Assembly: GCF_012720115.1 (NCBI RefSeq)
Contig: NZ_VNWN01000004.1
Span: 1-64,000 of the forward strand
Direction of reading: 5' to 3'
Source: Sneathiella chinensis
GTDB lineage: Bacteria > Pseudomonadota > Alphaproteobacteria > Sneathiellales > Sneathiellaceae
Length of the DNA: 64,000 bases
The notes beneath the pieces were generated by a model, which saw only the letters and a program-made list of their open reading frames with translations, was not told the origin of the DNA and ran no database searches. Of the stretch, positions 15,036 to 20,003 are shown one piece after another. How positions within the stretch are numbered: position 1 is the first letter of the stretch; each line of letters opens with the position of its first letter. A program made the translations under genes and the position numbers.

Positions 15036-16121
15036 TTATTTCGGCAGGCTGCCGATCACGCCTTCAACATAGTAGTTCATGCCAGCCAGTTCCGCATCCG
15101 GAATGGTCTTGCCTTCTTCAACAGCAATGGAGCCGTCCTGCTTGCGCAGCGGGCCGGTGAAAGGATTGATTTCACCCTTGGCAATGGCGGCTTCTGTTTT
15201 GCGAGCCATTTCGGCAATTTCTTCAGGCATGTTGGTATAGTCGGACATCTTGACCATGCCTGTGCTGAGGCCATCCCAGACTTCGCCGGTTTTCCATGTG
15301 CCGTCCAGAACTTCCTGGGTGCGCTTCACATAGTAGGGAACCCAGTTGTCCTCGATGCCGGTCAGTTGGGCATTGGGGGCAAAGGCGATCATGTTGGATG
15401 CCTGACCGAAGGCGAAGATGCCTCTTTCCTCGGCGACCTGCAGGGGGGCCGGGGAATCGGTGTGCTGGGTCAGGATGTCAACGCCCTGATCGATGAGGGC
15501 CTTGGCTGCGTCGCCTTCCTTGCCCGGATCATACCAGGTGTTTACCCAGACCGGTGTGATGGTGGCTTCGGGATTGACGGAACGGGCGCCGATGATAAAG
15601 GCATTGATCCCGCGAACAACCTCGGGAATGGGGAAGGACGCAACATAGCCGATCTTGTTGGTCTTGGTCAGCTTGCCGGCAATCTGGCCCATGATGTAAC
15701 GGCCTTCGTAGTAGCGACCGGCATAGATGCTGAGATTGTCAGCGGTTTTGTACCCGGTTGCATGTTCGAATTTCACGTTGGGGAATTTCTTGGCAACCTT
15801 GAGGGTGGCGTTCATGAAACCGAAAGAGGTGGAGAAGATCAGGTTGTGACCGGAGGAGGCCAACTGACGGATCACCCGTTCTGCATCCGCGCCTTCCTTG
15901 ACGTTTTCAACATAGGTGGTTTCGATCTTGTCGCCGAGGGCTTTTTCAAGGCCAAGACGGCCCTGATCGTGCTGGTAGGACCAGCCATAGTCGCTGATCG
16001 GACCGACATAGACAAAGCCGACTTTCAGCTTGTCTTCCGCGCTTGCCTGGGCGGCAGTGAGGGCGAGGGCCGCCGCAGAGAGCGTACCGAGCAGGGATTT
16101 GAGGAAAAATCTGCGTTTCAT
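15036..16121 (-). CDS. BMP-family (PnrA-type) substrate-binding protein
   Basis: The 361-residue protein is predicted periplasmic, with a Sec signal (LLGTLSAAALALTAAQASA, cleaved near residue 28). The mature part is the BMP/Med fold: KVGFVYVGPISDYGWSYQHD, FSTSFGFMNATL and YAGRYYEGRYIMGQIAG are family hallmarks. BMP proteins bind purine nucleosides or related compounds for ABC import. It is last in an operon with two purine deaminases, which supports a purine ligand. No ABC ATPase or permease lies nearby, so it must use one encoded elsewhere. There is no lipobox Cys, unlike many lipoprotein members. Confidence 0.88.
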   Translation of the reverse strand: MKRRFFLKSLLGTLSAAALALTAAQASAEDKLKVGFVYVGPISDYGWSYQHDQGRLGLEKALGDKIETTYVENVKEGADAERVIRQLASSGHNLIFSTSFGFMNATLKVAKKFPNVKFEHATGYKTADNLSIYAGRYYEGRYIMGQIAGKLTKTNKIGYVASFPIPEVVRGINAFIIGARSVNPEATITPVWVNTWYDPGKEGDAAKALIDQGVDILTQHTDSPAPLQVAEERGIFAFGQASNMIAFAPNAQLTGIEDNWVPYYVKRTQEVLDGTWKTGEVWDGLSTGMVKMSDYTNMPEEIAEMARKTEAAIAKGEINPFTGPLRKQDGSIAVEEGKTIPDAELAGMNYYVEGVIGSLPK

Positions 16122-16194
16122 TGGTTTCCCTTTCCTATTGGGAGCTGTGGTCAGTAGTGGAAGAGGGGCGGGGGCTCCCTCTTCCTGCAGGTAA

Positions 16195-17202
16195 TCAACC
16201 CGCGTAAGCGGTCAGCTTTTCGTGCAGTTTGTCTTTTTCTGCCTGAGGGAGCCAGGAGCCGTCAAACGCGTTGCGGGTGAGTTGGATAACCTCGTTTTTT
16301 GAGAGGTTGGCTTCCTGTTGGGTCTTCACGATGTTCTCGGTCATATAGCCGACAAAATAGGCGGGGTCGTCCGAATTCACAGTGACCCGCATCCCTTTAT
16401 CCAGCATCTTCTTGATTTCCGGCGTCTTCATGCTGTCGGTTACATACCCGTTGGAGATCGGGCAGACGGTCAGGGCCAGTTTCCGCTTGATGATTTCCGC
16501 GCAAAGCGCTTCATCTTCCAGCGAGTTGACACCGTGGTCAATGCGATCAACACCGATGTCGTTCAGAGTCTGCCAGATATGCTGGACAGAGTTGTTCTGG
16601 TCCACATCACAGTGCATGGTCAGCAGATAGCCTTCCTCGCGGGCCTTCTTGAAGACCTCGGCAAACTTGAGGGGTGGGTTGCCGGCTTCGTCCGAATCCA
16701 GACCAACGCCGATGATCCAGTCCTTGTAGGGCAGGGACAGTTCAAGCGTCTTCATGGCGGATTCAGCGGACATGTCCCGCAGGAAGCACATGATCAGGCG
16801 GGTATCCACATTCAGGTTCTTGCGGGCATCCAGCTGCGCCCGGCGAATGCCCTTGATGACCGTGTCATAGGAAACGCCGCGGACGGTGTGGGCCTGTGGA
16901 TCGAAGAAAATCTCGGCATAGAGAACATTCTGCGCATGGGCCTTTTCCAGATAGGCGTAGGTCAGGTCGTAAAAGTCCTGTTCGGTGATCAGGACGGACA
17001 TGCCTTCGTAGTAGATTTTCAGGAAGGACGGCAGGTCGTCAAAATCGTAGGCGCCGCGCATTTCCTCTACGGTTGCGTAGGGCAGGCTGATGCTGTTGCG
17101 CTTGGCAAGTTCGAATTTCAGTTCCGGCTCAAGCGTTCCCTCGATATGAACGTGAAGTTCCGCCTTGGGCATGCCTTCGATAAATGTTTCAATGCTTTCC
17201 AT
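16195..17202 (-). CDS. Adenosine/adenine deaminase-family protein with altered catalytic motif
   Basis: The 335-residue amidohydrolase is of the adenosine deaminase superfamily. Metal ligands are visible: His17-x-His19 (ELHVHIEG), His197 and Asp278 (NSDDPAYF, Asp278-Asp279). The second catalytic His (DRIDHG, His223) is present. The family HAGE motif, whose Glu protonates the purine ring, reads HCDV (197-200), so the Glu position is Val. Either Asp199 or Asp201 substitutes or the substrate is different. The ATG at 17202 has AAAGGA before it and is chosen over an upstream GTG. It sits 18 bases after ade and before the BMP protein, so it should act in purine uptake or salvage. Confidence 0.85.
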   Translation of the reverse strand: MESIETFIEGMPKAELHVHIEGTLEPELKFELAKRNSISLPYATVEEMRGAYDFDDLPSFLKIYYEGMSVLITEQDFYDLTYAYLEKAHAQNVLYAEIFFDPQAHTVRGVSYDTVIKGIRRAQLDARKNLNVDTRLIMCFLRDMSAESAMKTLELSLPYKDWIIGVGLDSDEAGNPPLKFAEVFKKAREEGYLLTMHCDVDQNNSVQHIWQTLNDIGVDRIDHGVNSLEDEALCAEIIKRKLALTVCPISNGYVTDSMKTPEIKKMLDKGMRVTVNSDDPAYFVGYMTENIVKTQQEANLSKNEVIQLTRNAFDGSWLPQAEKDKLHEKLTAYAG

Positions 17203-17220: not shown

Positions 17221-18987
17221 TTATTCCGCCGGTCCCTGCACCGGATCGACGATTTCAAGGGCCACACAGTCAACAACGCCAAGGTCTGTCATGGCGTAAT
17301 CCGGGATGGCCGTAATGGACAGGACGAACATGTACATGAACGGCCACGGGACATCGCAACCAAGGGTGCGGGCAGCATCGTCCAGCTTTTCTTCAAGCAC
17401 GGCCATTTCAAACGGTTCGATGTCGGACACAATGCCGCCGATCGGCAGGGTCAGAAACTCGACCACTTCACCGTTATCCACCACAACCTGACCACCGCCA
17501 GCGGCGATGATATGGTTGACGGCGATGCTCATGTCCTCGCTGTTGGTGCCGATACAGACGATATTGTTGTCATCGGGCGAGGTCGAGGTGGCCAGCGCCC
17601 CCCGTTTCAGGTTGAACCCGGAGGCAATGCCGGTGGGCCGGTTGTTGGTCTTGCCGTAACGCTCCACCACGGAGATATAGATCAGGTCGTTGTCAATATC
17701 GGGCAGGACCTCGCCGTTCCGAACATTCATGACAACCTCTTTGCCCTTACGGACAAAGATCTGGTTGGTGGCTTCGATGGCCAGTACCTTGACCTTTTCC
17801 GCATCCAGTGAGGTGCGAACCTTGAAATCATCCGGGGATGTCGGTTTGACCTTGAAGGTATCCGTCAGGGACGCCGGCCGGGCCGGGGCCTTCAGTTCCG
17901 TGATCATCTTGCCGCCTTTGGCGACCAGCTTGCCCTTGGCAACCACCTGCTGGACATTGAACGTGGCAGGATCGTCCACAATGACAATATCGGCCAGACG
18001 GCCCGGCGCGATGATGCCCACCTTGTGGTCAATGCGATAGGCAACCGCGCTGTTGATTGTTGCCATCTGGATGGCGCTGATCGGGTCAACACCCTCGCGG
18101 ATGGCCATGCGGACCATGTTGTCCAGATGGCCGCGCTTCAGCACATCCGAAGCCACAACATCATCGGTGCAGAAGCTGACGCGGTGCTGGGCTTTCGGTG
18201 CCAGCTTGGTCGCCAGTTGGATGTTTTCCTCAAGGAAGTGGGAGATAGAGGATTCCCGGACAACCACGAACATGCCGTTGCGCAGCTTTTCAAGGGATTC
18301 TTCAACCGTGTAGCTTTCATGGTCGAGGCGGACCCCGGCGTTGGCATAGCTGGCCAGCTTGTGGCCGCGGCACATGGGGGCGCAGCCAAAGACCGGCAGG
18401 TTGTTCTTCTCGGCGATTTCGAGGGCTTCCAGAACCTGCTCATCCTCTTCCTGAATGAATTCGCGAACTGTTTCCCAGATGCCGATACATTCGGGCCATT
18501 CGTGGGTTTCCCGGTGATCATCCGGGCCGAAATAATGGCCGACGGTGGAGGTGGGCATGGTGTAAGGGGTCTTGCACGGTGCGCCCCAGAAAATGCCCAT
18601 GGGGCTTCCATTGGCTTCATCAAGGAAGTGACGCACCCCTTCCAGTCCGGCAACGACCAGAATCTGGTCCAGCCCGGAGACAATGCTGGTGGTGCCAAGG
18701 GGAACAACCAGTTTGGCAAAGCTGGTGACGGACAGCTTGCTGCATTCAACATGCAGGTGGCCGTCGATCATGCCGGGGCTGAGATAGCCGCCCTCGGCGT
18801 CGATAATCCGGGTGTCGGGACCCTTGCAGTGGTCCACGTCGCCGATGGCCACAATATACTGGTCCTTGATGGCGACTTCCGCCGGATAGATTTCGGAAGA
18901 TGCAACGTTGATCAGGTTGCCGTTGGTGATCACGTAGTCGGCTTTAATCTCGCCCGCGCCGGCACGAATGCGGTCTCTCAGTTCCAT
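17221..18987 (-). CDS. ade: Adenine deaminase
   Basis: The 588-residue cytosolic metalloenzyme converts adenine to hypoxanthine and ammonia. It has the COG1001 layout: an N-terminal amidohydrolase barrel with GMIDGHLHVECSK (metal His-x-His), FCTDDV (metal Asp, about 290), GIIAPGRLADIVIVDD, and the C-terminal adenine-deaminase domain ending ALEIVDPVQGPAE. The length is normal. The ATG at 18987 is preceded by GAGGACAGG and is preferred over a start 33 bases upstream. First gene of the purine operon, divergent from an AraC-type regulator. Confidence 0.93.
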   Translation of the reverse strand: MELRDRIRAGAGEIKADYVITNGNLINVASSEIYPAEVAIKDQYIVAIGDVDHCKGPDTRIIDAEGGYLSPGMIDGHLHVECSKLSVTSFAKLVVPLGTTSIVSGLDQILVVAGLEGVRHFLDEANGSPMGIFWGAPCKTPYTMPTSTVGHYFGPDDHRETHEWPECIGIWETVREFIQEEDEQVLEALEIAEKNNLPVFGCAPMCRGHKLASYANAGVRLDHESYTVEESLEKLRNGMFVVVRESSISHFLEENIQLATKLAPKAQHRVSFCTDDVVASDVLKRGHLDNMVRMAIREGVDPISAIQMATINSAVAYRIDHKVGIIAPGRLADIVIVDDPATFNVQQVVAKGKLVAKGGKMITELKAPARPASLTDTFKVKPTSPDDFKVRTSLDAEKVKVLAIEATNQIFVRKGKEVVMNVRNGEVLPDIDNDLIYISVVERYGKTNNRPTGIASGFNLKRGALATSTSPDDNNIVCIGTNSEDMSIAVNHIIAAGGGQVVVDNGEVVEFLTLPIGGIVSDIEPFEMAVLEEKLDDAARTLGCDVPWPFMYMFVLSITAIPDYAMTDLGVVDCVALEIVDPVQGPAE

Positions 18988-19163
18988 CCTGTCCTCACTG
19001 GTTACTGACGTTAGAAGCATGAAAGCGGACCTTGGGCCCGCCTGTTTTTTATCTGTGAACGGGGCCGAAACAGCAATATCCGAGCTTGGACTATTTCTTA
19101 CTGAAATGAACCTCTTGTGGTATGGTCAGGAAAGTTGACGGTTAAAGCCTATAAATTTCAAGC

Positions 19164-20003
19164 ATGGTTAGGGATTTGTTTTTTAGGCTTTTGTGGAGTT
19201 GTCTTGTTGAAATGAATGTTCTGTCCTCCATCCCATCCTTTGTTTTTGGCGAGACCCTGTACCGCGGCGGCGGCCGGTTCGGGCCGATTACCAATCCGCA
19301 TCTGGAGCTTCTGGTCGTGCATTCCGGCGGGGTGGTCTTTGCCGTGGACGGAGAGGACCATGTCCTGACCGAAGGGTATGCGGCGCTGGTGCCGGTTCGG
19401 TCGCATCTTGTCTATGACTATCGGGACGGGATGGATACGCGGGTTTCATGGTGTGAGGCGATCCTGCCCGAGGCGCGAGAGGAGATTTTCCAGTTTCTAG
19501 CCACGGTGCCGTTTACATTGCCCGTATCGCACCGGATGCTGGATCTGCACCGCATGGGGGCGGGACTTGAACTGGGAGGCGGGCCAGAGGAAATGGCCCT
19601 TGCCTATTCCCTTGGGCGGACCCTGTTTCATGAATATATCTATCAGGCCCAGGTGGTGCAGCGGGAAAAACCGGTGCACAAGCTGGTCCTGCGGGCCAAG
19701 CATTTTATCGAGCAAAGTGTGGATCGGCCATGTAGCTTGAGTGATATTGCCGCTTTTGCCAATGCCACGCCGCAATATCTGACGCGGATATTCAAGCGGG
19801 ACATGGGGCAGACACCGGTTGCCTATCTGTGGACCGTCCGGTCGCAAAAAGCGGTCAGGATGCTGCGGAACAGTGGCCTGTCCGTTGCCGAAATCGCTTA
19901 TTCCTGCGGGTACGAGAATGCCAATCATTTTTCCCGTCATATCCGGGAAAAGTTCGGCGTGCCGCCAACAGAAATTCGCCGCCGGAAGTGGGGGCCGGAG
20001 TAA
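19164..20003 (+). CDS. AraC-family regulator, probable controller of the purine operon
   Basis: The protein has up to 279 residues, with an N-terminal cupin-like sensing domain (about 20-150) and a C-terminal double helix-turn-helix (178-275) with CSLSDIAAFANATPQYLTRI and the signature SVAEIAYSCGYENANHFSRH. It is divergent from ade across about 170 bases, the usual arrangement of a local activator. The start is uncertain: ATG at 19164 or at 19212 (MNVLSSIPSF), neither with a strong ribosome-binding site. It ends 31 bases before the end of the convergent oxidase operon. Confidence 0.88.
   Translation: MVRDLFFRLLWSCLVEMNVLSSIPSFVFGETLYRGGGRFGPITNPHLELLVVHSGGVVFAVDGEDHVLTEGYAALVPVRSHLVYDYRDGMDTRVSWCEAILPEAREEIFQFLATVPFTLPVSHRMLDLHRMGAGLELGGGPEEMALAYSLGRTLFHEYIYQAQVVQREKPVHKLVLRAKHFIEQSVDRPCSLSDIAAFANATPQYLTRIFKRDMGQTPVAYLWTVRSQKAVRMLRNSGLSVAEIAYSCGYENANHFSRHIREKFGVPPTEIRRRKWGPE

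Follow-up and report, generated by a model that had tools for sequence, protein, structure and literature searches.

How a protein of the adenosine deaminase family might process a purine without its catalytic glutamate is the question raised by one gene in the window, the 64,000-nucleotide stretch of Sneathiella chinensis DNA analyzed here. In adenosine deaminase, the Glu of the HAGE motif protonates N1. The gene in question, which reads from an ATG at 17202 to a stop codon at 16195-16197 on the minus strand, encodes HCDVDQ where relatives have HAGEEG, with HCDV as residues 197-200. A first-pass annotation, made from the letters of the DNA, had stated that HAGE is replaced by HCDV, whereas all metal ligands and the second catalytic His remain. 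Both statements are borne out: H17, H19, H197, D278 and H223 are all present and, like D279, are conserved in 81 or 82 of the 82 HCD-type rows of our alignment (His197 in all 82; Table 1).

Table 1. Coordinates of the HCDV-type deaminase gene, its active-site elements and the adjacent genes in the window
Feature	Position	Strand	Remarks
HCDV-type deaminase, cytokinin-deaminase clade	16195..17202	-	335 aa; PF00962 (cog1816)
HCDVDQ motif (197-202), comprising metal ligand His197 and the loop in place of HAGE	16597..16614	-	sequence, pattern match, conservation
HVH metal ligands His17 and His19	17146..17154	-	kept in 82/82 and 81/82 HCD rows
Second catalytic His223 (RIDHG)	16534..16536	-	81/82 HCD rows
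Asp278 (metal ligand) and Asp279	16366..16371	-	each 82/82 HCD rows
Divergent cog1001 adenine-deaminase homologue ('AdeC'), first gene of apparent operon	17221..19020	-	599 aa; TIGR01178
BMP/PnrA-type periplasmic purine-binding protein	15036..16121	-	361 aa; PF02608
Divergent AraC-type regulator	19164..20003	+	PF12833, PF00165

The Pfam A_deaminase match (PF00962) spans the entire protein, at 267.7 bits against a cut-off of 27. The solved structures nearest by sequence are 3ou8 of P. aeruginosa (332 bits), which we take to be the adenine deaminase Pa0148, and 3rys (AAur1117; 273 bits), followed by bacterial adenosine deaminases at no more than 106 bits. The AlphaFold2 model, built on an alignment of 56 homologues (mean pLDDT 96.4, pTM 0.94), has the same two structures as its closest folds (3rys, Z 48.5, rmsd 1.4, 328 residues aligned; 3ou8, Z 47.9, rmsd 1.2, 312 residues aligned), and these are likewise the top two in Foldseek. 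The window protein has in common with these type 2 adenine deaminases the fold (Z about 48), the metal ligands (HxH, H and D), the catalytic His and Asp, the GLDSxExxNPPxKF segment and the NSDDPAYF motif, but has the two-residue-longer HCDVDQN in place of HAGEEG. The catalytic-Glu HAGE motif that characterizes both type 2 adenine deaminase and Add is found neither in this protein nor in any of the 82 HCD rows. The NCBIfam equivalogs TIGR01430 (366.7 bits, cut-off 216.55) and NF006850 (450.9 bits, cut-off 419) both score above threshold and label the protein an adenosine deaminase. This label is likely a misannotation that may affect the entire clade.

The remodelling exceeds one residue. Where the HAGE-type homologues have HAGEEGPPxxI, the window protein has HCDVDQNNSVQHI, and the MAFFT alignment, which is gapped here, sets Q202 opposite the lost Glu. 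With two extra residues in the loop, that place may belong to V200 or to Q202, so that a plain Glu-to-Val replacement is one of two readings. The nearby loop following CPxSN is shorter in the HCD rows than in the HAGEEGP rows. Among the 152 collected homologues, the four-residue motif is HCDV in 73, HCDI in 8, HCDL in one (82 with HCD[V/I/L] altogether), HAGE in 69 and HSCE in one. The alignment with homologues sharing HCDV that the first-pass annotation had proposed has C198 and D199 invariant in the 82 HCD rows, Q202 in 81, and V, I or L at position 200 throughout. Sixteen positions, each defined by a residue present in >85% of one group and <15% of the other, set 81 HCD rows (without the divergent second L059 copy) apart from 55 HAGEEGP rows; these include D143 (H in 55/55 HAGEEGP homologues), T195 (V), M196 (A), N226 (R in 54/55) and W317 (F). 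A sequencing slip or frameshift is ruled out by the conservation of the motif across phyla (C198 and D199 in 82/82), and a decayed enzyme by the intact catalytic residues. As its close relatives have the unusual motif in common with it, the protein looks specialized.

Judged from these sequences, the HCDV motif marks a clade. The tree was built from 48 representatives of the 152 homologues, thinned at 70% identity and with the motif loops removed, by a quick search without bootstrap. With the motif columns thus excluded, a single branch (SH-aLRT 100) sets the 24 HCD representatives apart from the remaining rows, the HAGEEGP rows being next to them; among the four long terminal branches flagged is that of the divergent L059 HCD row. 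The clade is represented in Alpha- and Gammaproteobacteria, Actinomycetota, Chloroflexota, Spirochaetota and Bacillota. The relatives were fetched with MHCDVDQN among six search patterns and the best 80 of 250 were kept, so that the frequency of HCD among the fetched loci (79/80) is biased by the motif-containing pattern. Within the genus Sneathiella, the HCDV gene is patchy, being found by identity (71-100%) in 4 of 24 genomes, several of which are incomplete; a homologue 51-55% identical and near full length is present in 21 of the 24, with a fragment in one more, and carries HAGEEGPP in all cases where its sequence was read. The Solimonas marina locus L059 encodes, at 15627-16679, a second HCDVGQ protein that is 42-43% identical to the window protein and has APTLF as its CPxSN segment; it possibly represents a further subfamily.

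The clade very probably includes an enzyme of described activity. According to the consulted excerpt of PMC13296781, Patl2390 of Paraglaciecola sp. T6c is a cytokinin deaminase of group 3 of cog1816, with kcat/Km values of 1.3e6 M-1 s-1 for N6-methyladenine and 8e6 M-1 s-1 for N6,N6-dimethyladenine and no activity on adenine or adenosine; a passage of PMC13054789 cites cytokinin deaminase among the enzymes that prefer alkylated bases. PF00962 genes were listed in 22 genomes of the genus represented by locus L055 (uncultured Paraglaciecola). One of these, G071, is matched to T6c and carries the exact 24-base core of the patl3640 primer given in the relevant passage of PMC4954714. The family has three members in this genome, namely, the HCDV gene at 2,905,994 (+), a HAGEEGPA paralogue at 2,945,074 (-) and an ADGF-like gene in a 544-aa frame at 2,686,303 (+). 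Locus tags were assigned by gene counting calibrated between Patl_3640 and Patl_3107, which the excerpt of PMC6375700 names as the FlgT candidate. The FlgT_M match at 3,739,441 was taken as Patl_3107, and a second match at 3,414,527 that misfits the tag spacing was dropped; calibration gave 499-528 gene calls between Patl_3107 and Patl_3640 at six cut-offs, compared with 533 tags. The HCDV gene is thereby placed at tag 2390.3 (the finest setting), 2390.6, 2388.5, 2386.7, 2383.3 or 2396.7, and the HAGE paralogue, at the same six settings, at 2413-2426. The ADGF-like gene lies beyond the counted stretch and falls by hand, at ~1.2 kb per tag, near tag 2230. Hand linear interpolation between Patl_1308 (the FlgO candidate of PMC6375700) and Patl_3107, which is less exact than the direct count and in which, from three FlgO matches, those near 1,577 kb were chosen for their fit, puts tag 2390 at ~2,878 kb, with the HCDV gene ~28 kb and the HAGE gene ~67 kb away. 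With tags 2383-2397 for the HCDV gene and 2413-2426 for its HAGE paralogue, Patl2390 is very probably the HCDV protein of T6c, an identification resting on gene counting between locus tags.

The T6c protein, with HCDVNQ, and the window protein share 57% identity over 331 residues; for the HAGE paralogue, the value is 45%. Both the HCDVxQ loop and the metal site are common to the two HCDV proteins, as are 13 of the 16 clade-specific positions; the differences at positions 143, 144 and 171 mean that the specificity of the window protein may differ from that of Patl2390. Membership of both proteins in one clade follows from the support for the HCD branch taken together with the gene-counted T6c protein, which is itself absent from the tree. 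At this level of identity, the window protein most likely has the cytokinin-type activity, i.e., is predicted to deaminate N6-substituted adenines, whereas ordinary adenosine deaminase activity appears unlikely. The kind of enzyme, cytokinin deaminase, is already described and removes side groups from modified adenines, including plant cytokinins. Literature text searches on Patl2390 and nearby locus tags returned PMC13296781 as the single pertinent paper, and one on the HCDV motif strings returned no enzyme paper as judged by title and start of abstract; the original Patl2390 paper (Goble 2011) may well mention the missing Glu.

The gene is embedded in an apparent operon in which, on the minus strand, the cog1001 gene (AdeC), the HCDV gene and the BMP gene follow each other with gaps of 18 and 73 bp. 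The divergently transcribed AraC-type gene is, by its position, a candidate regulator. The first-pass annotation had named adenine deaminase and a purine-type binding protein as the partners; both are present, but the 'adenine deaminase' is itself unusual. Its match to TIGR01178 (408.4 bits) is under the cut-off of 472.5. An alignment with 3nqb and four canonical homologues (32-33% identity) shows that it retains the HxH, the Glu and the later His and Asp of the metal site, whereas the His of GH, which we take to be a metal ligand in canonical cog1001 proteins, is replaced by Cys (GCAPM) and DPHE by GLDQ. The AdeC copies at 10 other HCD loci, in Alphaproteobacteria and Acidimicrobiia, carry the same Cys-for-His and LDQ-for-PHE changes; the L003 row of that comparison is the window's own gene, truncated where the locus ends. 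Close AdeC copies (the window's own and one at 82%) were found in 2 of the 60 genomes searched, both with HCDV; in three further HCDV genomes among the 60, no AdeC copy was detected at E 1e-60.

The closest solved relatives of the BMP protein are 3s99, in which adenine is modelled, and AtzT. As stated in the excerpt of PMC6834077, Asn218 and Asn220 of AtzT are near guanine; the window protein and 3s99 both have His and Asp at the aligned positions, if the numbering match drawn from our alignment holds. The window's BMP gene has no adjoining genes for membrane partners. About 75-80 kb away in the same genome (locus L173, G000:C14:82000-100000), there is a purine uptake and oxidation run with xdhB- and xdhC-type genes, an ABC ATPase, two permeases, a BMP protein 60% identical to that of the window, a HAGEEGPP-type homologue and a class-V aminotransferase. 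The ABC membrane partners encoded in this run may serve the window's BMP protein. The HAGE-type homologue encoded there, beside xdh and the ABC transporter, is 54% identical to the HCDV protein and presumably serves plain adenine; the genome additionally encodes a HAGEFGGP-type member of the family.

The neighborhoods of the HCD genes are diverse. Thirteen gene types were chosen for a count within 6 kb of the HCD gene, covering enzymes and permeases of purines as well as BMP, AdeC, Rieske and GST. At least one is present at 37 of the 79 HCD loci (the window excluded); the remaining 42 have none, 12 of these loci being shorter than 12 kb. The most frequent types are the Xan_ur/NCS2 permease clusters (14 and 11 loci), cog0402 amidohydrolases (12), AdeC (10), the Rieske cluster (9), nucleoside hydrolase (7), and urate oxidase and GST (6 each), followed by the BMP cluster, purine nucleoside permease and nucleoside phosphorylase (3 each), and uricase and allantoinase (2 each). 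These counts are for HCD loci alone, and the clusters were annotated via a few representatives, most members being labelled by similarity; the BMP label in L033 is putative as the respective protein gave no Pfam match at 1e-8. The four cog0402 neighbors that were tested include guanine and 8-oxoguanine deaminase types. Further neighbors are a second PF00962 gene (14 loci), 2OG oxygenases (9) and LLM oxidoreductases (4). In the gammaproteobacterial-type loci L036, L038, L040 and L046, an LLM-class flavin oxidoreductase cluster gene immediately follows the HCDV gene. In nine Alteromonadaceae-type loci (L035, L037, L042-L045, L047, L054 and L060), this place is taken by DgcN/DgcA-type genes, of the N-acetyltransferase and N-acetyl-D-Glu racemase families (annotated in L037), for which a link to purines is not apparent. 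An HpnE cluster, which is not purine-related, is found beside the HCDV gene in 4 alphaproteobacterial loci.

In the Acidimicrobiia loci L022, L023, L024, L026, L027, L030 and L031, the HCDV gene adjoins AdeC and Rieske-cluster genes are near. The Rieske-cluster genes are also found in L018 (Dehalococcoidia), and GST accompanies them in 6 of these 8 loci. L022 has, near the HCDV gene, two Rieske/VanA_C oxygenases, a Rieske-plus-ferredoxin reductase and a GST. The oxygenase that was tested matches SxtDIOX (112 bits), SxtT (111), NdmB (106) and NdmA (96), and the reductase matches phthalate dioxygenase reductase (188 bits) and, with its C-terminus, an NdmD fragment (71 bits). By sequence similarity, the set resembles the genes of the methylxanthine N-demethylases NdmA, NdmB and NdmD; unlike L022, the window operon has no such genes adjoining. 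The AdeC and Rieske neighbors hint at N-alkylpurine catabolism. Another comparison is with YerA and Bh0637, cog1001 proteins that the excerpt of PMC12133300 describes as N6-methyladenine/N6-methyladenosine deaminases. The predicted reaction of the HCDV protein is alike in kind and its operon partner belongs to cog1001, but the HCDV protein itself comes from another amidohydrolase family; the AdeC partner differs from canonical Ade in metal-site residues and was compared with YerA via the C-terminal domain only.

The site that remains after the loss of Glu could be explained in several ways. The protein might be an adenine or adenosine deaminase of the ordinary type, with Asp199 or Gln202 taking over from the lost Glu, as the GLDSxExxNPPxKF segment, the other catalytic residues matching those of adenine deaminases and the NCBIfam labels would suggest. 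Such a role is unlikely, considering that Patl2390 is inactive on adenine and adenosine according to the text consulted (PMC13296781), and that the Sneathiella genome already has HAGEEGPP- and HAGEFGGP-type members. A slightly less likely alternative is a deaminase of a modified adenine that needs no N1 proton, such as 1-methyladenine, the hydrophobic residue 200 accommodating the N1 substituent. An N1-alkylated ring would need no acid, the V, I or L at position 200 in 82/82 rows fits this scheme, and genes related to N-demethylases stand beside the Acidimicrobiia copies; the known clade member, in turn, is described in the same excerpt for N6-substituted adenines.

By far the least probable option is a pseudo-enzyme or a non-hydrolytic role. 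It would account for the absence of a Glu that is regarded as essential for deamination; against it stand the metal ligands and catalytic His and Asp, kept in 81-82 of 82 rows, and the kcat/Km of 10^6-10^7 M-1 s-1 stated for a clade member in that excerpt of PMC13296781, the member being identified by gene counting. The reading that we prefer, and hold to be quite likely, is that the window protein is a metal-dependent enzyme of the cytokinin-deaminase clade that acts on N6-alkylated adenines and has a remodelled loop replacing HAGE. The suggestion in the first-pass annotation of a modified purine, with N6-substituted purines named among the candidates, finds support in the substrates listed for Patl2390 in the excerpt of PMC13296781 (linked via gene counting) and in the neighbor genes of some relatives. 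Points against the cytokinin reading are the 42 of 79 loci without the chosen neighbors, the conserved non-purine neighbors at some HCD loci, and the NF006850 and TIGR01430 calls.

Under the cytokinin-deaminase reading, a putative zinc-type amidohydrolase would cleave the amino substituent off adenines alkylated at N6 (N6-methyl-, N6,N6-dimethyl- and probably isopentenyl-type), yielding hypoxanthine and an alkylamine. A water molecule activated by the metal that is predicted to be bound by His17, His19, His197 and Asp278 would, with His223 and Asp279, attack C6. The HCDVxQ loop in place of HAGE would open room beside N6/N1, and Asp199 or Gln202 might provide a substitute contact to N1. The base could be delivered by the paralogous purine-binding protein, probably via the ABC system ~75-80 kb away, and the hypoxanthine would be passed on to xanthine dehydrogenase.

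Tentatively, and with the odds rather against it, the widespread glutamate-less clade with its invariant Cys-Asp-(V/I/L)-x-Gln loop, found partly in a module with the remodelled cog1001 protein, the purine-binding protein or Rieske oxygenases, could represent an unrecognized pathway in which N-alkylated adenines, coming from plant hormones or the turnover of RNA/DNA, end up as hypoxanthine. The clade is a natural test of how necessary the textbook Glu is for purine deamination, and HCDVxQ offers a simple marker for correcting adenosine deaminase labels, given that the characterized member cannot use adenosine. The neighborhoods of the HCD genes, finally, suggest where bacterial breakdown of N-alkylated adenines might take place.
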